From NCBI GenBank assembly GCA_937919685.1, contig CALFOM010000044.1:1-38586 (forward strand): a DNA stretch of 38,586 nucleotides, written 5' to 3'. The notes under the pieces are model-generated. The model saw nothing but the letters and a program-made list of their open reading frames with translations. It was not told the origin of the DNA and searched no databases. Position numbers and translations under genes: made by a program. Positions 8,728 through 22,984 of this stretch are shown piece by piece; the stretch's first letter is position 1, and each line of letters starts with the position of its first letter. The stretch is from an uncultured Phycisphaera sp. GTDB lineage: Bacteria > Planctomycetota > Phycisphaerae > Phycisphaerales > SM1A02.

Positions 8728-8890
8728 CGGTTGAGAATCGTTGGTCTTTACTCAATGCCGCATGGTCTGGTCGCCGATGAATCGGACGAACCGGGTTTGT
8801 ACCGCAAGTGGCGGTGCTGCTCACCTCGCGCCCCACGGGGCAGGTATGGAGTCCGGCGTGCGAAGTCTTACCAACGACAAGAGTCCTGGA

Positions 8891-10414
8891 ATGATCATGC
8901 GAACAATCGTCATGTTGCTGTTTTTGATGATGTCCGCTGTCACCATGAATGGATGCGAGGTTGATTCTTTCTTCAATCCCAGCGTCACCGGCTACTACGA
9001 GAGTACGCCATCGTCGATGCCGATTCTCACTCGCATCGACGTGATTGAGCGGGAATCGGGATTCTCGCCGGACGTCACGAAGCCGACCCCGGAAGATCTG
9101 GTTCCCAACCAACTGGTCTATCGACTGGCACCCGGCGACGTCGTTCGAGTAGAAATCTACGAACTCGTCTCCGCGAATCAGACCGACGTCTCGGTGCGGG
9201 TGATCGATCAGGCAGGCTCCATCCGCCTTCCAACCCTCGGTGACATCCAGGCCGCCGGCCTCACGGTCGACGAACTTCAGGAAGACATCATCAATCGGCT
9301 GACGGGGCTCATCTCCGATCCACTGGTGACGGTGGTCCTCGAAGACGGTCGGAGTTTTCAATTCACGATCTACGGTGCGGTGGCTGGAACCGGTATCTAT
9401 GCCCTCACCAGACCAGATTTCCGCATCATGGACGCGCTCTCGCTTGCGGGAGGCACGGCCAGTACGACTCAGAAGATCCTGATCATTCGCGAAGTCGCGA
9501 TCGATGAAGCGGTCCGTCCGGAATACGAACGCGGCGAAGGCGTCCCCGGGTCAACCGATGACGGAACCGGCGAAGACGATGTGTCGGACATCGATGCCCT
9601 GATCGAGGCGCTGGGCGACAACACTGGCAGCCCCTCGGCCATGAGGCAGTCCGATGAGCCGCCGGTGGACGTTGACGACCTCAAGGGTGTTTCGGTCGAC
9701 GATGGGCCTCGTGTAAGACCTGGTACCGATCGAATTCGAAGCGCAACTTCTCAGGAGGGGAGTGGTGACGCATTCGTCTTTGACGAAGATCGTCAGGAGT
9801 GGGTCCGACTCTCTGCCGAGCAGGTCGCGGAGCTTGAGAAGAGTGGCGGGAATGTCAGGCCGAACACTGATCGGGAATCCGTCGCGGAAATTGAGGAAAA
9901 GCGGGAGAGCCCTTACGCCACTCGGATCATCCAACTCGACTATCAGGCTCTGGCTCGTGGCGACAGCAATCTGAACGTGGTGATTCGACCCGGCGATCGT
10001 GTCTTCATCGATACGCCTGAGATCGGCGTCGTCTACATCGACGGCGAGATCATCCGTCCTGGTGTCTACCAGTTGCCGATCGCAGGAAAATTGACGCTGA
10101 GCCGGCTCGTCGCTGCCGCCGGCGGACTCAATCCGATCGCCATTCCCGAACGAGTCGACTTCACCCGAAAGATCAGCGCCGATCGTGAAGCGACTTTGAG
10201 AATCAATCTCGCCGCCATCCGCAATCGCGCGGAGCCCGACATCTTCATGCGGAGCGATGACCACGTTCATATCGGAACAAATTTCTTCGCGGCCCCGCTC
10301 GCGGTGATTCGAAATGGATTCCGATTCACCTACGGGTTCGGTTTCTTGCTGGATCGCAACTTCGGTAACGATGTCTTCGGGCCTCCGCCAACCAACATCG
10401 GCAATGGCCTCTGA
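8891..10414 (+). CDS. Wza-like polysaccharide export lipoprotein with a split SLBB domain
   Basis: This is a 507-residue outer-membrane exporter of the Wza/OPX family. The N-terminus (MIMRTIVMLLFLMM) is a signal peptide ending at Cys22 (TMNGC), a weak lipobox. The polysaccharide export domain covers about residues 72-150, starting at VYRLAPGDVVRVEIY. A first SLBB domain begins at about 156 (FTIYGAVAGTGIYAL) but is interrupted at about 206-342 by an acidic, Gly/Ser/Asp-rich insertion. It resumes at RIIQLDYQALARGD with IRPGDRVFI. A second SLBB follows (VYIDGEIIRPGVYQL, 381-395). The C-terminal part is Phe/Gly-rich and could span the outer membrane. ATG at 8891 or 8897 fits; the longer frame from 8741 lacks a signal peptide. 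It opens the exopolysaccharide/exosortase locus. Confidence 0.88.
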   Translation: MIMRTIVMLLFLMMSAVTMNGCEVDSFFNPSVTGYYESTPSSMPILTRIDVIERESGFSPDVTKPTPEDLVPNQLVYRLAPGDVVRVEIYELVSANQTDVSVRVIDQAGSIRLPTLGDIQAAGLTVDELQEDIINRLTGLISDPLVTVVLEDGRSFQFTIYGAVAGTGIYALTRPDFRIMDALSLAGGTASTTQKILIIREVAIDEAVRPEYERGEGVPGSTDDGTGEDDVSDIDALIEALGDNTGSPSAMRQSDEPPVDVDDLKGVSVDDGPRVRPGTDRIRSATSQEGSGDAFVFDEDRQEWVRLSAEQVAELEKSGGNVRPNTDRESVAEIEEKRESPYATRIIQLDYQALARGDSNLNVVIRPGDRVFIDTPEIGVVYIDGEIIRPGVYQLPIAGKLTLSRLVAAAGGLNPIAIPERVDFTRKISADREATLRINLAAIRNRAEPDIFMRSDDHVHIGTNFFAAPLAVIRNGFRFTYGFGFLLDRNFGNDVFGPPPTNIGNGL

Positions 10415-10662: not shown

Positions 10663-11670
10663 ATGGCAAGAGACATGACCACCGCACCTTTAAAGAGCCC
10701 CGATATGGACGGAGAGCGGACGATAGACCTATCGCCGCGGACGTTCTACGTCGGCCTCGGTGTGATGCTCGCGTGTCTGGCAGGTGCGTTCTTCTATTTT
10801 CTGACCTCACAGGTTGAATATGCGATCGACTCGCCGGATGACTGGGGGCACACGCTGCTGGTTCCGGCCATCGTGGGGTGGCTTGTGTATCGGGATCGAG
10901 GGCGACTGCAAGAGATGCAGCCGTTCAAGCCGGCCTGGTCGGGCATTTTTCTTGTCGTCGTCGGGCTCGCCTTCTATCTGACCGCCATGCCCGGCATCGG
11001 GCCGAAATGGCTGATGATTCACCACAACGCCCGCGCGGTCGGAATCGGGATCACGCTGGTTGGCGTCGTGCTGACCTTGTTCGGCTGGCGGCCCATGCGG
11101 TGGCTCTGGTTTCCGATCGCTTATCTCGTGGTGTTCGGTACCACTTACACCGACGGAATACTCAACGTCATCACGGAACGGTTGCAGGACATCAGTGCCC
11201 GTGGCGGTTTTCTCCTGCTGGTGCTGATGGGCGTGGATGTCGATATCTCGGGAAATGCGATCACGCTCTTTCCCGACGGGAGCGACGCCAACGGCGCACC
11301 TTTGCCGCCGATCCCGCTGAACGTGGCGGAGGCCTGTTCCGGCATGCGGATGCTGGTGGCCTTCATGGCGTTGGGCACGCTGATGGCTTACGTCGGGTTG
11401 AAATTCTGGTGGCAGCGGATTCTGCTGATCGGCCTCGGTGTTCCCGTCGCGGTGATCGTCAACGTTCTCAGAGTGGCGACACTTGGCGTGCTGAGCCTCT
11501 GGGATCCCGGATTCTCCTCTGGTCAATTCCACACCTTCATTGGCTTTGTCTGGCTGGTTCCCGCCTTCATGTGCTTCCTCGGATTGATGAATCTGGTCAG
11601 CCGATTGGTCATCGAGGTCCCGGACGAATCGAAGAAGTCCGTGGCACAGGCACCGGGGAGTGGTTCATGA
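10663..11670 (+). CDS. Exosortase (membrane transpeptidase-like protein sorting enzyme)
   Basis: This is a 335-residue multi-pass inner-membrane protein. The exosortase catalytic triad is clear: Cys225 in NVAEACSGMRM, Arg270 in IVNVLRVATLG and His290 in FHTFIGFVW. Exosortases are thought to cut a C-terminal signal (PEP-CTERM or a variant) from exported proteins and pass them to the surface, often alongside exopolysaccharide genes, as here. About eight hydrophobic segments are visible from residue 28 on. ATG codons at 10663, 10675 and 10705 are possible starts. The stop overlaps the next start (ATGA at 11667-11670), implying translational coupling with the EpsI-like partner. I found no protein in the window with a PEP-CTERM-type C-terminus, so its substrates must be encoded elsewhere. 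Confidence 0.93.
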   Translation: MARDMTTAPLKSPDMDGERTIDLSPRTFYVGLGVMLACLAGAFFYFLTSQVEYAIDSPDDWGHTLLVPAIVGWLVYRDRGRLQEMQPFKPAWSGIFLVVVGLAFYLTAMPGIGPKWLMIHHNARAVGIGITLVGVVLTLFGWRPMRWLWFPIAYLVVFGTTYTDGILNVITERLQDISARGGFLLLVLMGVDVDISGNAITLFPDGSDANGAPLPPIPLNVAEACSGMRMLVAFMALGTLMAYVGLKFWWQRILLIGLGVPVAVIVNVLRVATLGVLSLWDPGFSSGQFHTFIGFVWLVPAFMCFLGLMNLVSRLVIEVPDESKKSVAQAPGSGS

Positions 11671-12548
11671 TTCGTTTTCACAAACGTGTCAAGACGGCCT
11701 ACGCCTCGCTTCTGGTCGTGATGATCGTCGCGATGGTGGCGTTCCCGATCATGATTGCCAGCCTCGGTATCTACCTTCGGAAGAAACCGCTCGACATTCG
11801 CGAGAGTCTCGATTCGATCCCCGTTCGACTCTCTGGCTGGGCTCAGAAAGGGGAGGACGATCAGTACTCGTCGGAAATGGTCGAGGAGTTAGGGACCCCG
11901 ATCTACCTCTCAAGAAATTACGAGCGTCGCAACGCTCGGCTGAATGTCCATATCGCGTACTACACGGGGCAGATCGACGATGTTCCACACGTCCCCGAAC
12001 GTTGCTGGGCGGCGAATGGTGACAGCTGGGAGCGGGTCCTTGGTCACGACGGCATCAAGTCGATCAGCGTCGAGATCGAGGGCGCAGCACCTTCCGACGC
12101 CCCCGCCAACCGCGCGTCCGGAGAGCGATACAAATCGATCCCCATCATCGACCCGGTAACCGGGGCCACGGACCAAGTGCATCTTCCCGTCGGCGACTAC
12201 CAAATGACCGTGGTCGAGTTCAAGCCCAATCCCGCTGACCCGAAGTTGCGGCAGATAGGCGGGTACTTCTTCATTGCCAATGGTCGAATCAGTCCCTCGG
12301 CACGTGGGGTAAAAAATCTCGCGTTCGATCCCAGTGAAGAATACGCCTATTACTGCAAGGTTCAGTTGTCCTATCGCAGCAAGATCACCGATCCCAGCCA
12401 GGACACCTTGATTCCTGAATTTCTTGAGATCGCGGAAGACTTCCTTCCCGACCTCGTCCCCGAACTCTCGCAGTGTCTTCCCGACTGGATTGCAGTCGAG
12501 GCGCTTCGATCTCTCCCATCCGTGATTCCCCAGCAGTCTGACCTCTGA
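11667..12548 (+). CDS. EpsI-like exosortase-associated protein
   Basis: This is a 293-residue protein with one N-terminal membrane anchor (about residues 12-36, VVMIVAMVAFPIMIASLGIY) and a large exported domain. The pattern of an aromatic-rich core, HVPERCWAANGD (His108, Cys113) and GYFFIANGRISPSARGV fits the EpsI (DUF3485) family, which accompanies exosortases either as a separate gene or as a fusion. The start overlaps the exosortase stop by four bases. The frame runs open for about 790 bases upstream inside the exosortase gene, but that part is a shadow frame. The biochemical role of EpsI is unknown; a function in exosortase action or exopolysaccharide export is inferred from constant linkage. 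Confidence 0.82.
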   Translation: MIRFHKRVKTAYASLLVVMIVAMVAFPIMIASLGIYLRKKPLDIRESLDSIPVRLSGWAQKGEDDQYSSEMVEELGTPIYLSRNYERRNARLNVHIAYYTGQIDDVPHVPERCWAANGDSWERVLGHDGIKSISVEIEGAAPSDAPANRASGERYKSIPIIDPVTGATDQVHLPVGDYQMTVVEFKPNPADPKLRQIGGYFFIANGRISPSARGVKNLAFDPSEEYAYYCKVQLSYRSKITDPSQDTLIPEFLEIAEDFLPDLVPELSQCLPDWIAVEALRSLPSVIPQQSDL

Positions 12549-12561
12549 GAAAATTCCCCCC

Positions 12562-15500
12562 ATGGCCAAGCAGAAACTCAACATCAAGTTCCTCGCCATC
12601 TTCCTGAGCATCGCAGCGGTCTTACTCGTTGCGGTCACGGTCGTCGGCCTGGTGATCTACCGGAACGATCCGATCAAGCACATCACGACCGGTGATGGCT
12701 ACATGGCCAATGGGAAGTTCGACAGTGCGTCGAAATCGTACTTCCGCGCCTTCGGCAAGGACCCCTATCAGACCCCCGACTATCGGCCGATCGACAAGTC
12801 GATCGAGGCTGTTCAGTCGATCGTTCCAGGGTCCAATGTCGATGCCTTTGACCGCCAGAAGTTGATTCTCACGCTCTTCGCGAACAAAGCGATCTACGCC
12901 CAGAATTCGGCCGAGCGGGAAGCAGCGATTCGAGACCAGGTCATTCCGATCATGCGAGGAATGGGTATTCAGACGCCGATTATCGCGACGCTCATCAACC
13001 TTCAAGGCCTGAGCAATGAAACAAGGGCGATACTCGAAGGAATGATTCTCGAAGTCGCCTGGCGGAATGCATCTAGGCTTTCCTCCAACGAATGGAAGAC
13101 CAATCGAGATGACTTGGAAGAGTTGATCAAGCTTGATCCTGCGAACATTCGCAACCATTACGGCCTGCTCCGCGGCGATCTCGAGCAGTCATTCGAGCAA
13201 AGCACGGAGTCGTTGCAGGTCACCGCAGCCACCAAACCCTTTGACGATCAATTGGCTGCCGCTCGAGAAGCGGCCGGGCCGGCCTGGGAGTTTGAAGCGA
13301 TCGAATTGGAGCGGGACATTCGGATTGCGAGGATCGGCTTGCGGGATCAAGATCTCAAGGGTCGTGACGTGGCGCCGCCGGACCCGCAACGGATAGCGGC
13401 GCTGGTTCAAGCGATTCGGTTGGCGACGGCAGACTCGCTTGTAGAGGCGGATCGGGACCGGCTCGAACTTCTTCAGAGGATCTTCATTTCGAATGCCGGT
13501 CTGGCTTCATCGAATTCACGCGACTTGGAATTGGCCAGAGCCTGCGACATTGAGACTCGGGACGGCATCATCGCGCTGTCAGATGCGATCTATCGGATTG
13601 ATCCCGACGATTTTCGCAGCATCGCGAAGCGATTCGATGTTCTTCTCAGAGTTTCGAAGGATGAGGCCGAGGCCGATCGTCTCGCTCTTGCAGAGATCAT
13701 GGCGGACGGCCGGTACGTGGAGGGTTCTCTGACCCCGGCGGAGATTCGGTTGCGTGAGAAGAGGTCTATTCGTCTTGCGATGGCCGAGGATTTGATCGGC
13801 AGGAGTCGGGGCGCCATGGGAGGACTGAAGAACGCCGATGGGTCGTTCTCATCAAAGGTCAATCTCAACGAGATCTACTTCAGGAAGATGCAGACGATCG
13901 CTCGAAAGATGGTGCTGGATGCGGCGATCGAAGATCACCAAGCTACGCGGGACCAGCTCGCTGAAGAAAATCTGTCTCTGGCACTGGCAGAGGTGGAGTC
14001 AGCGTTCGAGGCATTCAAGGTGGAATTCGATGCCGAGAACGATCCGGAAATCAGCAAAGCCGTGCTCGTCGTCGAAAGACTGCGAGGGGAGAATCTGGAA
14101 TCACGAGGTCGAAACGCAGAAGCCCGAGGGGCTTTTGCCAAGGCGGTGACGGCCTACAACCAGTTGGTCTTAAATGGGGTCGAGAATGAGGCGAATCTTT
14201 CGCTCGCTGAAATCGATGCCGCGATTCTCGCGACACTAAAGACCGAACAGTTCGGCATGGTCACTGGCATCAAGAGGCGGCTGGCGGACCGGTATCCGGA
14301 ATACTGGAAGGAACCAGGCTTTCTCCAGAGCTTTGCGAACGACTTGGCGAAGGAGGGGCGGCTTGAGGAGGCAACGAAGTACGCGATTCAAGCCCAAGAA
14401 CTTGCCGTAGAACGTGGCGACGCGGAATCGATCGCCTCTCTTGAGAAGTTGGTTTCCGCGATCGGAGCCATGGGACAGGTTGGCTCCGGCGCCGTTCTCC
14501 CCGGAACGGAAATGCTCGCCGAGGACTCCGCGGCACGGGCGTCTGGTGATCTCGCCGAACGGCGACGTATTCTCAATTCGATACTCGACCGATCGCCAGT
14601 CGACCCAAGTGTCCACCGTCGAGTCCGATATCAGGCCATCATGAGGTCGATCGGGATCGCCGACGCCGAGGGGGACCAGGCGGGCCTTCGTGGTCTCGCG
14701 GAGAAGCTCCGAGAACTCGACCCGGACGACAGAACCGCCACCATGATTCTGGAGAGCGAATCCGCGAGTTATCTCGATCGCGCACGGACGCTGGCCCGGA
14801 TCAGCATCGAGCAGGACGTGGGGTCGGACTATTCTCCCGACGAACTCGACGTCGTGATTGCGGGTTACTTGAAGGATTACCTTCGGGTGACCAGCATGGT
14901 CTCCGGCAGCGGTCAAGAAATTCCTCCCGAGTACAAGGCGGAGCGAGGGGCCGTGGTGGCGGAAGCCAAGCGGCTTAACGATTCGATTCTGGCGATCGAT
15001 GACGACATGAAATCACCGGCGGTTCTTCGATATGTGATTCGGCGATCGCTTGGCCTGGATCAGAGAGATGAAGAGAAGGCTCGGAGATGGATCGATCGCC
15101 TGAGAGTGCTGGAAGGTGAGACGGAATTCACCATTCAGTCCCAGCTTTTGCTCTATCAAATCGCAGGAGAACGCGACAAGGCACTGGACTTGGCGGCGCG
15201 GGCTTGTGATGAAATGGGCTTCGGAACCGCCGAGGTCAGATTTGCATACGGTCTCCTGCTCGTCTTGAAGAACGATCGTGATGGCGCTCTTCGGCAGTGG
15301 AGACTGGCGAATGAGTTGTCACCCCGTGACCTCAGGGTGGCGGTGGCCCTCTCAGACCTGCTTGCGACGAACGGGGAGACCACTCAGGCGATCGAGGTCT
15401 TGCGCCGGACGAACTTGGCCATCGGATCACAAGATCAAAATTTCCGAGAACGTTGGCTCGCCGCGGAGCAGACGATCGGGAACAGCTTGATCGTCATAAA

Positions 15501-17871
15501 CGAGCGGCGGCGTGTGTTTGAAGTGGATCCCGGCAACGTGGTCAATGCTATTGCTCTTGCGGAGCGGCTGATGGGATCGCGTATCGATCGCGAGGACTTC
15601 ACGGAGGAGATCAAAGACCGAAAGACTGGGGAGATGATCTCGAATCCGAGTTACAGCGAACGGGAATGGGTGAAGCTCAACGAATCGGAGAAGAGCTCGC
15701 TGATCACAGTCAAGGGACGAGAGCGGTTCGACGAAGCAGATTCCGTCTTGAGGAGACTTCGTGCGTTCGATGACACTGATCCCGGTGTAATCATCGCCAT
15801 CAGCCGGTTCCTGCGTCAGGCGGGAGACAAGCCTGAATCAGATCGAGAGCTCGATGACGCGGTGAAACGGCTGGCGGAGATGGAAGATGCGCCGGAGAAT
15901 CGTCAAGGCCTCATCATTCTCGAACAGGGAAGAAATCTGTGGCGTGATGGCAGTCGGGTGGCTGCGAGAGAGAAATTTCAAGCGGCGTCCGATGCTCAGG
16001 CCAAGGATTCCGCCGAGATCACGGCGCTCACGGCAGAGTTTCTAACGTCCGCGAACGAGATCGGAGAGGCGATTTCCTATCGAGAGGAACTTCTTGCCCG
16101 GCTCAAATCTGCGGAATCAAGCCAGCGGATCATTCGATTGGTCGCTCGAGATCTTGTGTCCGCATATCTGGCGGAGAACGAGCTCGAGAAGGCTGAAGCG
16201 CTCATCGACGAATACGTTGATCCCGAATCAAGCAGCTATGGTGAGCAGGTCATCATTGGGCGTCTCGAATTCGCCAAGGCGGAGCGAATGTGGAAGAACG
16301 CCGGTGATCGACAAGGGGCACTCAAGCAGATCGAGAAGACGATCGCCGTCGCCGATACGGCGGCAGCGATGGTCGAATCTCAGGGCGGGGCGCCCTTGCT
16401 TCGTGCAGATGCCCTCCAGCTTCAACTCACGACGATGACCGATCCGGACGCTGCCAAGGATGTGCTGGAAGAGGCGACGCAGAGTTATCGCCGGGCCATT
16501 GCGTTCGAGCAGAGAAACTGGGAAACACGGCTCGCCCTGGTCATGTTCTTGGTTCGGAACTTCGAGTACGAATCGGCAGTGTCTGAGTTGGAGGAGTTCA
16601 TCAGCATTCGTAACGACCTTCCGGAGGCATCGATCATTCTCGCGGATCTTCTCGACACCCGATTGGAGCAGAGTGGCCAGGCGATGCAAGTCGCTCAGGA
16701 GGCGTTGAATCGTTCGCCGAAGAACCTCTTGCTGATCGATCTCGTCGCGAAGCTTCGTGAGAAGCGGAAGGAATACGACAAGGCTGCAGTTCTTTACCAA
16801 AGAGCGTTTCAAATGACCCAACAGCCGAGTTTTCTCGCTCGAGAAATTCGGGTGCGAATGAACCGAATTCCCCCGGATGCCAGAGCCGTGGTCGAACTCG
16901 CTCGGGCAAATCCCGGGGAATTTGCGAGGGATCCCGCCATTGCCGCGGCCTATGCCACGGCGGTCGAGTTACTCGGGGTTCAAAAGGGAAGAGGGCTCAT
17001 CCAGTTTCAGGATGTCTATTCGGCGTTCAAGGCCCAGACTGATGAAGCCATCGCGAAGAATTCTACGGATCCGTCCAATCTGAGAAGAGCGCAAGAGTCT
17101 CAAGAACGCGTGATGGAGCTGATCGCGTTCTGGTATCCGTGGCTCTTCGGTACCCAGAGCGGCGAAGGCGTCAACTTCATGGAGAAGGACGCTGCGGCCT
17201 TGGAGGATTTCATCGAGCAAGTGTCGAAGGGGAGCCCTTCATTGCACGATCTTCTGCAACTCAATAGGGCATGGCTCCTTGCGGGTAACGAAAGTCGGGC
17301 GATGCAGGCGCTGGAGAGGGCGCTGGAACTTGAGCATGTCTCGGAGAACGGTCGATATGCGACCTACGTCCGACTCGGAACGATTCTCCTGAATCTGGAA
17401 GAACCGGACTGTGAGCGAGCGCTCGATATCTTCGGCCGTTCCGCCTCGCTTCGTCCGCAGGACGCTCTGGTGAAGAACAACCTCGCCTACGCCATCCTCA
17501 GTTGCGGACGCGATCTCAAGAAGGCGCTCGCATTGAGTCTCGAGGCCGTCGAGGCCCGACCGGCGAATTCATCCTTTCGCGACACGCTTGCCGGGATCTA
17601 CTTTGCCATCGGGGAATCACTGGATGAATCCGATCAGGAGCGAACGGAGTATTTCCGAGCGGCCGAGCAGGAGTTCAAGCTCGTGCTAAAGATCGCTCCC
17701 AAGAACTTGGATTATCGGATTCGTCTCGCGAGGGTCTTCCTGGCTCTTGAGCAATGCGGCAACGCAAAATCTGCGCTCAAAATGGCTGGTGATGCAGGTC
17801 CGACCCCGAAACAACAAGACGAAATAGATGCCTTGACGGTGAAACTCGCTGATTGTGAGCGTGATCGATGA
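12562..17871 (+). CDS. Giant membrane-anchored TPR protein of the exosortase locus
   Basis: This 1769-residue protein has an N-terminal membrane anchor (about residues 10-33) with a short basic cytoplasmic end, so the body should be extracytoplasmic. Nearly all of the rest is alpha-helical, with many degenerate tetratricopeptide repeats. Examples are a unit starting YMANGKFDSASKSYFRAFG near residue 47, units around residue 870 and 1400-1460 (YDKAAVLYQRAF) and the C-terminal units from about 1570 on (ALERALELE, AEQEFKLVLKIAPKN). No enzyme motif is visible. TPR proteins accompany exosortases in other phyla (PrsT-type), but this one is about twice as long as I expect. It starts 13 bases after the EpsI-like gene. 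A scaffold role for the polysaccharide or sorting machinery is inferred. Confidence 0.85.
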   Translation: MAKQKLNIKFLAIFLSIAAVLLVAVTVVGLVIYRNDPIKHITTGDGYMANGKFDSASKSYFRAFGKDPYQTPDYRPIDKSIEAVQSIVPGSNVDAFDRQKLILTLFANKAIYAQNSAEREAAIRDQVIPIMRGMGIQTPIIATLINLQGLSNETRAILEGMILEVAWRNASRLSSNEWKTNRDDLEELIKLDPANIRNHYGLLRGDLEQSFEQSTESLQVTAATKPFDDQLAAAREAAGPAWEFEAIELERDIRIARIGLRDQDLKGRDVAPPDPQRIAALVQAIRLATADSLVEADRDRLELLQRIFISNAGLASSNSRDLELARACDIETRDGIIALSDAIYRIDPDDFRSIAKRFDVLLRVSKDEAEADRLALAEIMADGRYVEGSLTPAEIRLREKRSIRLAMAEDLIGRSRGAMGGLKNADGSFSSKVNLNEIYFRKMQTIARKMVLDAAIEDHQATRDQLAEENLSLALAEVESAFEAFKVEFDAENDPEISKAVLVVERLRGENLESRGRNAEARGAFAKAVTAYNQLVLNGVENEANLSLAEIDAAILATLKTEQFGMVTGIKRRLADRYPEYWKEPGFLQSFANDLAKEGRLEEATKYAIQAQELAVERGDAESIASLEKLVSAIGAMGQVGSGAVLPGTEMLAEDSAARASGDLAERRRILNSILDRSPVDPSVHRRVRYQAIMRSIGIADAEGDQAGLRGLAEKLRELDPDDRTATMILESESASYLDRARTLARISIEQDVGSDYSPDELDVVIAGYLKDYLRVTSMVSGSGQEIPPEYKAERGAVVAEAKRLNDSILAIDDDMKSPAVLRYVIRRSLGLDQRDEEKARRWIDRLRVLEGETEFTIQSQLLLYQIAGERDKALDLAARACDEMGFGTAEVRFAYGLLLVLKNDRDGALRQWRLANELSPRDLRVAVALSDLLATNGETTQAIEVLRRTNLAIGSQDQNFRERWLAAEQTIGNSLIVINERRRVFEVDPGNVVNAIALAERLMGSRIDREDFTEEIKDRKTGEMISNPSYSEREWVKLNESEKSSLITVKGRERFDEADSVLRRLRAFDDTDPGVIIAISRFLRQAGDKPESDRELDDAVKRLAEMEDAPENRQGLIILEQGRNLWRDGSRVAAREKFQAASDAQAKDSAEITALTAEFLTSANEIGEAISYREELLARLKSAESSQRIIRLVARDLVSAYLAENELEKAEALIDEYVDPESSSYGEQVIIGRLEFAKAERMWKNAGDRQGALKQIEKTIAVADTAAAMVESQGGAPLLRADALQLQLTTMTDPDAAKDVLEEATQSYRRAIAFEQRNWETRLALVMFLVRNFEYESAVSELEEFISIRNDLPEASIILADLLDTRLEQSGQAMQVAQEALNRSPKNLLLIDLVAKLREKRKEYDKAAVLYQRAFQMTQQPSFLAREIRVRMNRIPPDARAVVELARANPGEFARDPAIAAAYATAVELLGVQKGRGLIQFQDVYSAFKAQTDEAIAKNSTDPSNLRRAQESQERVMELIAFWYPWLFGTQSGEGVNFMEKDAAALEDFIEQVSKGSPSLHDLLQLNRAWLLAGNESRAMQALERALELEHVSENGRYATYVRLGTILLNLEEPDCERALDIFGRSASLRPQDALVKNNLAYAILSCGRDLKKALALSLEAVEARPANSSFRDTLAGIYFAIGESLDESDQERTEYFRAAEQEFKLVLKIAPKNLDYRIRLARVFLALEQCGNAKSALKMAGDAGPTPKQQDEIDALTVKLADCERDR

Positions 17872-17973: not shown

Positions 17974-20160
17974 ATGAGCGTCCAGACAACAAGATCGTCT
18001 ACTTCAGCTTCGGCCAACACCGGTGCCTCGTCGAGAGGAGGCAATGCCGTCGACCCCATTCGGCTCCTGCGGCAGAATCTCACCCTTCTCATCGTGACCG
18101 GTGTCGTTGGACTGGGCTTGGGTGGGTTGTGCTTCGTGGTCGCCGGTGCGTTCTTCCCGAGCTTCCAGGGAGTAGTTCGTTACAAGCTGCTTGGAGAGAT
18201 CGGAAGCGCTGATGATGCGATCGGCAAGGAGACGCGAAACGAGGACACGGTCGCTCGGCTTGCGCAGACCGAAGCGTACAGTTCAATCGCCGAGCCGCTT
18301 CTTGAGATAGTGGTCCGTGACCGCGAAGTTCAGAACATCGATTGGATGAACCAGTTTAAGGATGACGCGGGGTTGGTCAATCACGCCGAGGCGCTTCGCG
18401 AACTTTTGGAAGAGATCTCCGCGAGTCACCTCAAGCGAACGCAGTTCTTCGAGATCAAGTGGAATGCGGGCAATCCGAACGACGTGATGGCTCTTCTAAA
18501 CAGCGTCCAACAGACCTACGATCAATTCAGGAAGACCGAACGTGAGAATCGCCTCCGACGGGCGATCGACCCATACGAAGTCTCCGTGCAACAGATCGAG
18601 AGCGACATCGCGGACCTCGAGAACCAGATTGAAGGCGACATCGAGTCGTCGGAAATTCTGACCTTGGCCAACGATGGCGGATCCGTGCAGGACGATCTCG
18701 TCAGCCGGGAACTCGAACGGAACCTCGTACTCACTCAGATTGAGCAGTACAGTGGGTCGCAGAAGCAGCTCACTGCGAAACTCAGCGGTTTTCGAGATGC
18801 TTCACAGGATGACATTCGAGATGCCGAGATGGATCCGGTCGTGATGAACTCCCTTCAGGAGATTCAGGCGATTCGCGGAATTCTGGGGGAGCATCGTCAG
18901 CGATTCAGCCCGGATCACCCGCAGGTTAGAACCACGCAGGGGATGCTTGATGCTCGACTCCGGGAAAAGGACCGGAAGGTCGAGGAGATCATCAATCGGA
19001 ACCTGACAAGCTCGTTGAGTGGAGTGACGAACGCGCTGGCTCAGCTCCTCAACACCGAGAAGATGCTCGATAGCGAGATCATCACAATGAGGACGGCGCT
19101 CGTGGAATCGAACGGGCATCTTTCCGATCTCGCGAAACTCGAATCGAGACTCGAGCGGAAGGAAGAGCGCAAGCAGGATATCCAACGTCAAATCGACGAT
19201 ATCCGGGCGGTCTTCCTGCGGACTGACTCGGACATTGTCATGCTGGCAGTCCCGGTGCAACGGCCTACTGAGCCAAGTTTTCCGCTCTGGTACACGATGA
19301 TTCCCGGAGTGGCGTTCCTTCTGATCCTCAGCGTTGGCGGCGTGGTGTTCGTTCGAGAGTTGCTCGACCAGCGAGTACGAACGACCACGGACGTCCTTGC
19401 GGTTCCGGGCGCGAAGCTGCTCGGAGTGATTCCAGATCTGAAGGACGATCCGACCGATGCGACCAGAGGCGAGACCGTGGTACGGGATCATCCCAACTCC
19501 GTGCTCGCCGAGAGCTACCGACAATTTGCCGCGACATTCCGTCGCGCACGACTCGACGCGAATGCGAAGAGCGTGCTGTTTTCGGCAGGGATGCCGGATG
19601 CCGGCACAACTTCCGTGGTGCTCAATCTTGCTTCGACGATCGCCGCGGCGGGTCGATCGGTCGCCGTCGTCGATGCAAACTTCCGCCGGCCAAAAATCGC
19701 CCCGATGCTCGGATTGGACCCCAACGATCCAGGACTCGGCGATATTCTCTGCGAGGGGAAGTCGATCGATTCCGTCATCTCGAAGACCTCTGACGGTATC
19801 TCGGTCATTTCCGCCGGTACCTCGACGAATCGAGTCTTTGAGCGCTTTGACGGCGAAGCGATGATCGAATTTCTTGCAAGCATGCATGAACGCTTCGACG
19901 TGATTCTGATCGACGGGCCGCCACTGGTGGTGGCCAGCGAGTCGATGAGCATTGCCAATGCCGCCGATGCGTCAATTCTGGTGATCCGTGCCTACTCCGA
20001 GCAGCGAGGACTGGTCGCCCGACTGATTCGGCAACTCAACGAGCAATCGGGTTCTTTCCTCGGCGTGGTTCTCAATCGCCCTCGAAATACGGCGGGTGGT
20101 TACTTCCGTCGGAACTACGAAGCGATGGCGGCGTATTCCGATGATGTTGAGTCGAAGTAA
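17974..20160 (+). CDS. Wzc-like chain-length/BY-kinase protein with degenerate Walker A
   Basis: This is a 728-residue polysaccharide co-polymerase. An N-terminal Wzz-type part has membrane segment 1 (about residues 35-60), a long periplasmic coiled-coil part and membrane segment 2 (about 435-460). A cytoplasmic P-loop-like domain follows. The domain keeps the Walker B-like VILIDGPPL (Asp647) and the usual fold motifs, but in the Walker A position it reads SAGMPDAGTTS, with Thr545 where the invariant Lys of GK(S/T) belongs. In the Walker A' motif VVDANFRRP, Asn569 replaces the second Asp. The C-terminus has three tyrosines (YFRRNYEAMAAY), like the phosphorylated cluster of true kinases. It therefore probably regulates chain length without normal ATP-dependent kinase activity. 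ATG at 17974 is preferred over the TTG at 17941. Confidence 0.87.
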   Translation: MSVQTTRSSTSASANTGASSRGGNAVDPIRLLRQNLTLLIVTGVVGLGLGGLCFVVAGAFFPSFQGVVRYKLLGEIGSADDAIGKETRNEDTVARLAQTEAYSSIAEPLLEIVVRDREVQNIDWMNQFKDDAGLVNHAEALRELLEEISASHLKRTQFFEIKWNAGNPNDVMALLNSVQQTYDQFRKTERENRLRRAIDPYEVSVQQIESDIADLENQIEGDIESSEILTLANDGGSVQDDLVSRELERNLVLTQIEQYSGSQKQLTAKLSGFRDASQDDIRDAEMDPVVMNSLQEIQAIRGILGEHRQRFSPDHPQVRTTQGMLDARLREKDRKVEEIINRNLTSSLSGVTNALAQLLNTEKMLDSEIITMRTALVESNGHLSDLAKLESRLERKEERKQDIQRQIDDIRAVFLRTDSDIVMLAVPVQRPTEPSFPLWYTMIPGVAFLLILSVGGVVFVRELLDQRVRTTTDVLAVPGAKLLGVIPDLKDDPTDATRGETVVRDHPNSVLAESYRQFAATFRRARLDANAKSVLFSAGMPDAGTTSVVLNLASTIAAAGRSVAVVDANFRRPKIAPMLGLDPNDPGLGDILCEGKSIDSVISKTSDGISVISAGTSTNRVFERFDGEAMIEFLASMHERFDVILIDGPPLVVASESMSIANAADASILVIRAYSEQRGLVARLIRQLNEQSGSFLGVVLNRPRNTAGGYFRRNYEAMAAYSDDVESK

Positions 20161-20216: not shown

Positions 20217-21206
20217 TTGACCGATGGTGGAATCAGCCTCGTCACGGGCGGGGCGGGCTTCATAGGCTCGCATCTGGTCGATCTCCTTCTGGAGGCCGGT
20301 GATCGGGTGACTGTCGTCGATGATCTTTCGACCGGTTCGCTCGCTAACCTCGAATCGGCGATTGCGGCGGCTCCGGATCGAATCAAGATTCTCGAAGGTC
20401 GAGTTTCCGACGTGTTGCCCGATCTCGATCCGTCACGTTTCAGTCGAACCTTCCATCTCGCCGCGGCAGTCGGTGTGAGGCTGGTGGTCGACGAGCCGAT
20501 TCGCACCATTGAAACCAATGTGCACGAGACGTCCGCGGTGCTCGCGTTCGCTCGCCGTGGTGCGATTCCGACTCTCATCGCATCCACCAGCGAAGTGTAT
20601 GGCAAGGGAACACGGACGCCGTTTGCGGAAGAGGACGATGTGGTCTACGGGCCGACGACCACGACGCGGTGGTCTTACGCGTGCTCCAAGGCGATCGACG
20701 AGTATCTCGCGCTCGCGCACCATCGTGAGGGCCTGGCTCCAACGGTGGTGGTCAGGTTCTTCAACACCGTCGGTCCTCGGCAATCCGGAAAATACGGCAT
20801 GGTGCTGCCGAGATTCGTGGAAGCGGCCCTAGAGGGTCGTCCGATCGGGGTGCACGGAGATGGAAAGCAGTCGCGATGTTTCTGTGATGTTCGCGATGCG
20901 GTTCCAGCATTACCACGGCTGATTGAAAATCCGGCGAATCACGGTCGAGTGTTCAACCTCGGTCGCGCCGAATTGATCGAGATCGGTGACCTCGCGCGAC
21001 TCGTAAAATCCCGTCTCGGCAGCGAAAGCGAGATCCGCATGATTCCCTATGCCGAAGCTTTCGACGAGGGATTTGAGGATCTTCGAGTCCGCCAGCCGGA
21101 TCTCGATCGGATTCGCACGGCAATTGGCTTCGATGCGAAGATCGCATTGGAGACCACCATCGACGACCTCGCATCCAGTCTTCAGTCCGGGGGGGTCGAT
21201 CGATAA
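20217..21206 (+). CDS. NAD-dependent sugar-nucleotide epimerase/dehydratase
   Basis: This 329-residue short-chain dehydrogenase of the extended type should modify a nucleotide sugar for the polysaccharide. Residues 8-19 hold the Rossmann motif VTGGAGFIGSHL. The catalytic Ser/Thr is in STSEVYG and the Tyr-Lys pair in YACSKAIDEY. RFFNTVGPRQ and the later FCDVRDAV are typical of UDP-glucose 4-epimerase and UDP-glucuronate decarboxylase relatives. The exact substrate cannot be read from the sequence. It begins with TTG, supported by AGGAG, and its stop overlaps the ATG of the next gene (TAATG at 21204-21208), so the two are translationally coupled. The upstream gap to the Wzc-like gene is 56 bases. 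Confidence 0.88.
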   Translation: MTDGGISLVTGGAGFIGSHLVDLLLEAGDRVTVVDDLSTGSLANLESAIAAAPDRIKILEGRVSDVLPDLDPSRFSRTFHLAAAVGVRLVVDEPIRTIETNVHETSAVLAFARRGAIPTLIASTSEVYGKGTRTPFAEEDDVVYGPTTTTRWSYACSKAIDEYLALAHHREGLAPTVVVRFFNTVGPRQSGKYGMVLPRFVEAALEGRPIGVHGDGKQSRCFCDVRDAVPALPRLIENPANHGRVFNLGRAELIEIGDLARLVKSRLGSESEIRMIPYAEAFDEGFEDLRVRQPDLDRIRTAIGFDAKIALETTIDDLASSLQSGGVDR

Positions 21207-22984
21207 TGCTTCTCGGAGCGATCAATTCTCAGAACGACTTGCTCGGCGATCTATCGATGGTCGAGCCGGACGCGTTCGATTCGAATGGAGTCTGGGCGAA
21301 CGTTCAGGAGGCATGGCAGGTTCTGGTCGGTGTCGATCGGTCCGGAGGATTTCCGGTGAACGTGCCAGAATGGTCGAGTCTGCTCAATGCGTTTCTTCCG
21401 ATCCTGATCATTGCCTTTCTTCTGACGCTCTTCACCGTTCCCTTTGTTCGCTGGCTCGCCGTGAAGTTCGACATCGTCGACCACCCTGACGGAGGTCGGA
21501 AGGTTCACGCCTATCCGGTGGCCTATCTCGGAGGGATGGCGGTCTTCGTCGGTCTTCTCGGTGGGATCTTCGCCAGTTACGTCCTGCCGTCGCTGGTCTC
21601 AGCCAGAGCGGGAACCATCGTATCCGAGTACTCGTTGGTCCCATTTGCGATCACGGCGGGGATGTTCACGATCTTCGTGACCGGGATATTCGATGACATC
21701 TTCCACTGGGATCCTCGATTGAAGATCGCGGGGCAGTTGGCCGCGGCGGCATTTCTCGCGTTGAGTGAAATTGGGACCGCGGCAACGCGAGGTCTGATCA
21801 GTCCGATCCTAAATCGCTGGTCGGTTCCAAACTCAAACGTCTGGTTTCTTTCGGATGGTCGAGAGCTCTCGATCTGGAAGTGGATTGACCTCGGTCCAGC
21901 TGGAGTCGAAAGCTGGATGGGTTGGATTCCCTGGTACAGCGTCGATGGAATCTATTACTGGGCGGGCGTGATCTTCATCGCGGCGCTCATTCTCGGAGCG
22001 TGCAACGCTGCCAATCTCATCGATGGTCTTGATGGGCTTCTTGCCGGAAGTGTCGGAATCATGGCGGCGGGTTTCGTGGTGGTAGCGGTGATGCTGGCGA
22101 TCGTCGATCGTCAGGAGGTCGAACCGTTGGAGTTGACGGATTCCGCCCTCGCCGCAGTTGTGGAATCCGAGCTCGATCGCCCGATCGATGGGGAAGAGAG
22201 ACTGGTGGCGCTGCTTCGGGAAGAACCCGTGAATCAGTTCGGCGAATCGAAACTCCGGAGGTTCGTTGCGGATCGTCAAACGGCGGATGGCGCCGAGACC
22301 TTGCTCGACCTGAACGGCGACGACCGCTTCGATAAACGTGATTCTGAAATTCTGGGAACAGTGCTGGAATCCCGCATCGGACCACGCCCCGATCGACTCG
22401 TCGGGTCCCGGCTCGTTCTGGCGCTGGCGCTTCTCGGTGCCGTTCTGGGATTTCTTCCGTTCAATTTCAACCCTGCGGTCATCTTCCTCGGTGATGCAGG
22501 CAGTCTGATGCTTGGATACGTCTGCGCTGTTCTGATTCTCTCGCTCGGCGAGGAGGGGCAGACGCACTACGTGATCGCAGGTCTGATCATCTTTGCGCTT
22601 CCGATCATGGATACGATTCTCGCGATCCTCCGTCGAAAACTCGCAGGAGTTCCGATGTCGGTGGCTGATCGAAATCACATCCACCACATTCTGCTTCGGA
22701 GTTTGGGCTCGGTGAAGAAGGCGGTGCTCCTCCTCTACGCGATCAACGTCGTCTTTGTGCTTCTCGGCGTTGGACTTGCGGCGGCGGTCGCATTCGGCTC
22801 GGCTCGATACCTCCTGGTCTACGGCGTGGCGACGATCTTCTTCGGCATCGTGGGAGCGGCCGCACTCAAGTCCGGTCTCCGGCACCGTTGGCTGATGCAG
22901 ACGTTGACTGCCCGAGGAAAGGACAGCGTCGGCACGCCGTCCAACGTCTCAAAGGGGACGGAATCGCGGCGCGAGGCTGGTTGA
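21206..22984 (+). CDS. WecA/MraY-family polyprenyl-phosphate glycosyl-1-phosphate transferase with an EF-hand-like insertion
   Basis: This 592-residue membrane enzyme should move a sugar-1-phosphate, probably GlcNAc-1-P, from its UDP form to undecaprenyl phosphate, starting the repeat unit on the cytoplasmic face. Family motifs present: HPDGGRKVHAYPVAYLGG (93-110), DDIFHWDPRLKIAGQ (163-177, the Asp pair), NLIDGLDGLLAG (270-281), FLGDAGSLMLG (427-437) and the HIHH cluster (491-494). Usual homologues are about 350-400 residues. Here an extra N-terminal part of about 60 residues and a loop of about 100 residues (300-400), between two membrane segments, make it longer. Loop residues 368-379 have the pattern D-x-N-x-D-x-R-x-D-x-x-D, like an EF-hand or dockerin calcium loop. 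By family topology the loop should face the periplasm. It closes the polysaccharide cluster. Confidence 0.9.
   Translation: MLLGAINSQNDLLGDLSMVEPDAFDSNGVWANVQEAWQVLVGVDRSGGFPVNVPEWSSLLNAFLPILIIAFLLTLFTVPFVRWLAVKFDIVDHPDGGRKVHAYPVAYLGGMAVFVGLLGGIFASYVLPSLVSARAGTIVSEYSLVPFAITAGMFTIFVTGIFDDIFHWDPRLKIAGQLAAAAFLALSEIGTAATRGLISPILNRWSVPNSNVWFLSDGRELSIWKWIDLGPAGVESWMGWIPWYSVDGIYYWAGVIFIAALILGACNAANLIDGLDGLLAGSVGIMAAGFVVVAVMLAIVDRQEVEPLELTDSALAAVVESELDRPIDGEERLVALLREEPVNQFGESKLRRFVADRQTADGAETLLDLNGDDRFDKRDSEILGTVLESRIGPRPDRLVGSRLVLALALLGAVLGFLPFNFNPAVIFLGDAGSLMLGYVCAVLILSLGEEGQTHYVIAGLIIFALPIMDTILAILRRKLAGVPMSVADRNHIHHILLRSLGSVKKAVLLLYAINVVFVLLGVGLAAAVAFGSARYLLVYGVATIFFGIVGAAALKSGLRHRWLMQTLTARGKDSVGTPSNVSKGTESRREAG

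Follow-up and report, generated by a model that had tools for sequence, protein, structure and literature searches.

In the protein encoded by the Wzc-like gene of this planctomycete locus, a Wzz/chain-length part is joined in one chain to a P-loop domain of the BY-kinase type. The Walker A lysine is absent from this domain, which raises the question of whether it is still a kinase. The original prediction had proposed a pseudokinase that controls chain length without autophosphorylation or, alternatively, a domain that binds something other than ATP. We addressed this question by comparing the gene, its locus and its homologues across the family, order, class and phylum. In what follows, the window denotes the whole 38,586-nt stretch of DNA that was analysed.

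The Wzc-like gene and its exosortase locus

The features of the window that bear on the question, all on the plus strand, are the following.

8741..10414, +: OPX protein (polysaccharide export), Poly_export plus SLBB domains (profile search, tblastn)
10663..11670, +: exosortase, EpsH family (profile search, tblastn)
10878..12548, +: ORF whose second half carries DUF3485 (EpsI-like); overlaps the exosortase ORF, start as called
12562..17871, +: large TPR protein (PrsT-like, below cut-off), 1769 aa, directly upstream of the Wzc-like gene
17974..20160, +: Wzc-like PCP-2a gene, 728 aa (profile matches, PDB BY-kinases, Foldseek)
19582..19614, +: degenerate Walker A motif SAGMPDAGTTS, residues 537-547 (alignment, translation)
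19672..19680, +: Walker A' D567-A568-N569 (DxN, not DxD; class-wide) (alignment)
19912..19914, +: Walker B Asp647 (119/119 order sequences)
20074..20136, +: conserved C-terminal motif NRPRNTAGGYFRRNYEAMAAY, residues 701-721, at the site of the tyrosine-rich tail (alignment)
20217..21206, +: NAD-dependent sugar epimerase/dehydratase, directly downstream of the Wzc-like gene
21206..22984, +: glycosyl transferase family 4 (WecA/MraY-like), further downstream (profile search, tblastn)

The ATG at 17974 was taken as the supported start of the Wzc-like gene, since in three congeners (L034-L036) the alignment begins at this Met too. Profile searches gave weak matches of the N-terminal two thirds of the protein to chain-length determinant models, with TIGR03017 matching residues 145-486 (E 5.1e-8) and TIGR01005 matching residues 310-702 (E 1.3e-22), both under their curated cut-offs. 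BY-kinase models matched at about residues 502-705 (TIGR03018, E 1e-25; TIGR01007, E 5.4e-25), likewise under the cut-offs; the best NCBIfam match, TIGR03018, reached 90.3 bits against a curated cut-off of 230.65. The best sequence matches in the PDB were solved BY-kinases, namely BceF (6z0p, E 4.6e-23), VpsO, CapB and Wzc. An AlphaFold2 model of the domain, for which seven sequences were put in, was of poor quality (mean pLDDT 56, and below 50 in the P-loop at model residues 98-104) and was used for fold recognition only, not for residue geometry. With this model, the top Foldseek ranks were again taken by BY-kinases: Etk (3cio), CapAB (3bfv), Wzc (3la6) and Wzc K540M (7nhr). The Wzz/chain-length part and the BY-kinase fold, which together mark a PCP-2a protein, are joined here in one chain of 728 aa.

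When the proteins of the window were compared by tblastn with 16 neighbourhoods (12 from the order and four from the class outside the order), OPX/SLBB and exosortase genes were found to adjoin the Wzc-like gene in 14, the two exceptions (L037 and L038) being short contigs that end before these genes. An EpsI match was likewise present in 14/16 (none in L038 and L245). The TPR protein was matched in only seven neighbourhoods (L034-L039 and L238), and in the others the stretch from EpsI to Wzc had no tblastn match to it. Between congeners, this TPR protein diverges faster than its neighbour, with 67-69% identity in the best segment as compared to 86-88% for the Wzc-like protein. Downstream, the epimerase was matched in 10 and the family 4 glycosyl transferase in all of the 12 order loci; the four class loci, which comprise three Lys-keeping copies (L243, L245 and L246) and one copy from family f9 (L244), gave a weak epimerase match in one case and no match to the glycosyl transferase. 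Since the OPX-exosortase locus is common to Lys-keeping and Lys-less genes, these genes are best taken as positional orthologues.

Residue 545 and the other positions of the kinase-type domain

Translation from the ATG at 17974 placed Thr545 (codon ACA, 19606-19608) at the position of the Walker A Lys, within the region 19591-19680 that corresponds to codons 540-569. In three alignments with BY-kinases from the PDB, the P-loop Lys of BceF, VpsO and CapB1 lines up with T545, and the predicted reading SAGMPDAGTTS, with a Thr for the Lys, was thereby confirmed. The protein carries GTT where an active BY-kinase has GK[ST], and Ala543 occupies the site of the acidic residue that is usual in Walker A.

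The residue that follows Gly544 was scored in 189 homologues and in one paralogue. Whole-protein matches (E up to 0.001) were found in 177/181 genomes of the family, 298/301 of the order, 297/298 of the class and 84/99 of the phylum, the wider samples including the genomes of the narrower ones. The 79 own-family sequences, drawn from the 177 matching genomes among the 181 searched, cover 43 of 45 genera. From the matches listed, we selected by hand the 40 rows that represent the order's other families, an initial 20 class rows and all 20 phylum rows; the remaining 30 class rows came from 31 chosen genomes, one of which (G420) gave no locus. Because 12 of these 31 were f9 genomes, deliberately chosen since the first f9 member was without Lys, the class proportions given below are those of a non-random sample.

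None of the 119 sampled sequences of the order, from 78 genera and six families, carries a Lys at 545, so that the orthologues bear out the substitution seen in the window. In the own family (f1; 79 rows, 43 genera) the residue is T in 63, V in 7, A in 5, S in 2, N in 1 and C in 1; in the five other families (40 rows, 35 genera) it is A in 16, T in 11, V in 6, G in 2, S in 2, C in 2 and N in 1. The non-random sample from other orders of the class (50 rows, 21 families) is divided over Lys (22), Arg (14) and neither (14), and all 20 rows from the phylum outside the class (15 families) have Lys. The 14 class rows with neither residue consist of 13 from f9 (nine genera) and one f13 genome (L200); Lys is present in a second f13 row. 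In f9 (L153, L180, L182, L185, L187-L191, L193, L194, L205 and L207), the P-loop ends in GG[AST][ST] and a Tyr stands at the position of Arg571. The Arg rows, which read GRT or similar, belong to families f10, f15, f24, f25 and f26 (L143, L144, L154, L157, L178, L179, L181, L183, L186, L192, L195-L197 and L204).

The acid that precedes GK follows the same distribution. It is present at 543 in 20/20 phylum rows, in 19 of the 22 class rows with Lys and in all 14 with Arg; it is found in 0/119 order rows and in 0/14 class rows with neither Lys nor Arg. In the aligned rows, acid 543 and the Walker A Lys are hence missing together. The second Walker A' position behaves differently. That Asn569 (codon 19678-19680) replaces the Asp of the DxD of an active BY-kinase had been predicted correctly, but as an event it stands apart from the Lys loss: Asn occupies this position in 116/119 order rows and in 50/50 class rows, including all 22 Lys-keepers, with Asp in 20/20 phylum rows. 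We therefore rejected the idea that Asn569 is part of the same loss as the Lys.

Much of the rest of the domain is kept. The retention of Walker B, which the original prediction had pointed out, extends to Asp647 in 119/119 order rows; Gly544, Glu513, Arg516, Arg571 and Tyr721 are equally invariant, position 546 is Ser or Thr in all 119 and Asp567 is present in 113. Of the EX2RX2R motif, E513 and R516 are thus invariant, while residue 519 is Ala in the Wzc-like protein and, as judged by eye, Arg in most rows of f2-f6. R620 and R624 lie in a loop at 19831-19845 that in the class rows mostly resembles PNPAELL; R624 is Arg in 52/79 own-family rows and in 0/50 class rows.

The C-terminal tyrosine cluster was only partly as predicted. 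Three tail tyrosines (710, 715 and 721) do remain, and two of them are conserved, with Y710 kept in 117/119 order rows (77/79 in the own family) and Y721 in 119/119 (79/79). The tail is nonetheless reduced: the YxY pattern is found in none of the 79 own-family rows. Elsewhere in the order it occurs in f5 (3/3) and f6 (7/12) and is absent from f2 (0/22), f3 (0/1) and f4 (0/2); outside the order it occurs in 15/20 phylum rows, 13/22 class rows with Lys, 7/14 with Arg and 3/14 of the other class rows. As YxY is also absent from nine of the 22 Lys-keepers of the class, its loss alone is no mark of a dead kinase.

A second exosortase/EpsI/Wzc locus is present in the same genome on contig C224, and its Wzc paralogue has GDGKTT and DAD. 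This locus (L248, 1-7000) combines an exosortase, DUF3485, the Lys-intact Wzc and a bacterial sugar transferase. All 20 paralogues L208-L227, including that of the own genome, carry GDGKT; L228 has Lys and L229 has Arg, so that 21 of the 22 examined keep the Lys. A genome-wide loss of the kinase Lys was rejected on this basis, and since the paralogues keep GDGKT, the loss is specific to the copy in the OPX-exosortase locus.

The order of events was approached with a quick LG+G4 tree of 187 rows, from which the P-loop columns were excluded and in which the phylum rows served as outgroup; three long branches (L002, L166 and L169) were omitted from it and are present in an equally quick 190-row tree. 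In the 187-row tree, one branch (SH-aLRT 100) separates the 119 order rows from all the others, and another (also 100) sets apart the 13 f9 rows. Going from Lys or Arg to neither requires three changes on this tree, one of them for the whole order, and three on the 190-row tree as well, the direction as a loss depending on the phylum outgroup. Among the sampled sequences, then, the change from Lys to a neutral residue is a trait of the whole order, and on these trees a second, independent loss has taken place in f9, a family of another order. Asn569 predates the Lys loss, since Asn coexists with Lys in class rows and Asp is present in 20/20 phylum rows. In a first step, the ancestor of the class would have exchanged DxD for DxN; in a second, the ancestor of the order would have lost the Lys together with the neighbouring acid. 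The disappearance of YxY from f1, f2 and f4 may be a third step, although its tie to the others is less clean. It fits a later date because some Lys-less families still carry YxY, but it is not cleanly ordered because 9/22 Lys-keepers also lack the pattern.

Pseudokinase or active domain

The reading that we favour, at a probability of roughly 0.8, is that of a PCP-2a protein, belonging to an exosortase-linked locus for exopolysaccharide, with a cytoplasmic BY-kinase domain that has become a pseudokinase. By its sequence, the domain would qualify as a BY pseudokinase, as it unites the BY-kinase fold with the absence of two residues of catalysis, the Walker A Lys and the second Walker A' Asp. 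Some P-loop NTPases function without the Walker Lys, and in WNK kinases another basic residue takes over the role of the catalytic Lys. The domain could accordingly still be an ATPase or kinase in which R524, R620 or R624 replaces the Lys and the conserved tail tyrosines are the substrates, but we consider this unlikely. Basic residues conserved in the order might partly replace the Lys: position 524 carries a basic residue in 91% of the own-family rows, 84% of the order rows and 0/20 class rows, and R620 is present in 78/79 own-family rows, 82% of the order, 0/50 class rows and 2/20 phylum rows. Moreover, the near invariance of Y710 and Y721 would be natural for a phosphorylated tail, and Gly544, Ser/Thr546 and Asp647 are unchanged throughout. 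However, R620 occurs in only 19/40 rows from the other families of the order, which are Lys-less too, and none of the candidate positions is basic throughout the Lys-less rows. A general replacement was therefore rejected: no residue is basic in every order row yet absent from the class, positions 524 (84% versus 0/20) and R620 (82% versus 0) coming closest. The Asn at the second Walker A' position and the missing YxY of the own family also argue against an active domain, and the structural model (mean pLDDT 56) is too poor for placing these arginines.

It is quite improbable that the tail tyrosines are instead phosphorylated in trans by another tyrosine kinase, such as the Lys-keeping Wzc paralogue of the C224 locus, even though the own genome does hold this intact-Lys protein in a second exosortase locus. 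Among 71 good genomes of the family, a relative of the C224-type paralogue (E < 1e-30) was found in 21, the own genome included, and one more gave a match at 2.5e-18. The other 49 had no C224-type second Wzc, with best matches no better than 4.6e-16 that were the Lys-less protein itself or shorter MinD-like frames; Y710 and Y721 are kept in the family all the same. Because the paralogue is absent from 49/71 genomes, trans-phosphorylation by it cannot be general. The own genome has two low-molecular-weight phosphatase genes (PF01451) on other contigs (C232 and C23), and one of the 16 neighbourhoods (L238) contains a phosphatase homologue close to the locus (E up to 0.01), but no such homologue was found in the window or in the other 15 neighbourhoods at the same threshold.

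A sequencing error at Thr545 or a decaying pseudogene is hardly credible: the assembly is a fragmented draft of 254 contigs and the congener copy L036 carries an in-frame TAG, but 0/119 order sequences have a Lys, the reading frame of the Wzc-like gene is open and its kinase domain (500-700) shows an NG86 dN/dS of 0.038-0.072 against three congeners, a ratio that is rough in view of 0.45-0.62 synonymous differences per site. In these congeners (L034-L036, three genomes, 86-88% identical), Thr is encoded at 545 by ACA or ACG, the surrounding codons show synonymous changes, and residues 700-721 have zero replacements. The kinase-type domain is under purifying selection among congeners, and the earlier view of an intact gene that is not simply decaying was upheld. 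The TAG in L036 lies at codon 85, as does one in the L007 orthologue, each in an otherwise open copy.

Since the protein is intact and under selection but lacks the catalytic lysine, it is most readily read as a pseudokinase, which is the first of the two options that had been put forward. Its control of chain length is inferred from homology to PCP-2 proteins.

Known systems and the phosphorylation cycle

The closest points of comparison are Wzc of Escherichia coli, which likewise has a Wzz part, a cytoplasmic BY-kinase fold and an adjacent OPX export gene (passages of PMC8285477 and PMC11986026), and its engineered K540M variant, in which the same Lys is absent. As described in passages of PMC8285477, mutation of K540 abolishes phosphorylation, and K540M is a homogeneous octamer that was solved with ADP and Mg. 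In contrast to E. coli Wzc, the loss of the Lys and the preceding acid is natural here and is accompanied by DxN, a tail without YxY and an exosortase locus. The second option of the original prediction, the binding of something other than ATP, found support in none of our results. Since the residues of the fold remain (Gly544, Ser/Thr546 and Asp647 in 119/119, Asp567 in 113/119) and Wzc K540M was solved with ADP-Mg, nucleotide may still be bound.

BY pseudokinases fused to a PCP are a kind of protein that is already known. Portions of PMC12004946 describe EcpK (with EpsV, Myxococcus xanthus) and HfsB (with HfsA, Caulobacter) as BY-kinase folds without catalytic residues in Wzx/Wzy pathways, both required for polysaccharide synthesis, with EcpK binding its PCP. 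These are stand-alone proteins and EcpK has no Walker motif or tail Tyr at all, whereas the domain studied here is fused to a Wzz part and keeps most P-loop positions, Asp647, Y710 and Y721. Fused variants with a PCP and a BY pseudokinase in one polypeptide (SMc01795, Mlr8439, BCETI_6000729 and VV1_2305, from Cuthbertson et al., as cited in part of PMC12004946) resemble it by description only. CapB1 of Staphylococcus aureus, inactive in vitro and likened to a pseudokinase by its authors, differs in that its fold is the usual one and binds ADP-Mg, with the Walker residues and catalytic K55 marked in the alignment; in sections of PMC3795738, the N-terminus and surface charge are discussed as causes of the inactivity. 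The XrtA-associated tyrosine autokinase of TIGR03018 shares the exosortase neighbourhood and, as noted above, is the best NCBIfam match, yet its score falls far from the cut-off and the Lys of the autokinase is absent. Order-wide fixation of fused BY pseudokinases does not appear in the account that portions of PMC12004946 give. A search of titles and abstract starts in open-licence PMC, outside which most subscription papers lie, found no description of Lys loss in planctomycetes; what appears new relative to that literature is the fixation across an order, the second independent loss and the separable steps.

Without the Lys, the pseudokinase would not autophosphorylate its own tail. Its cytoplasmic ring may resemble that of Wzc K540M, a stable non-phosphorylated octamer with nucleotide possibly still bound, and the protein would then support polymerisation and export as a scaffold and would not be an assembly switch driven by phosphorylation. 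More tentatively, and with some doubt on our part, the order may have turned the BY-kinase of its exosortase locus stepwise into a phosphorylation-independent co-polymerase (first Asp569, then the Lys and the acid, with several families also lacking YxY; independently in f9), the neutral P-loop GxPx[AS]G[TAV][TS] holding a nucleotide whose role is structural or sensing, without phosphate transfer.

In current models, the function of PCP-2 proteins depends on a cycle in which the tail is phosphorylated and the octamer comes apart. The order, with a conserved and selected co-polymerase that cannot plausibly run the cycle and with Lys-keeping orthologues in the same locus of neighbouring orders, presents a natural experiment on this need. 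Genes with DxN and Lys, DxN and Arg, and DxN and neither offer comparison points for the change that silences the kinase. Annotations as 'tyrosine autokinase' within the order are probably wrong; in the building and export of surface sugars by these marine planctomycetes, the Wzc-like protein is probably a structural scaffold and not an enzyme.
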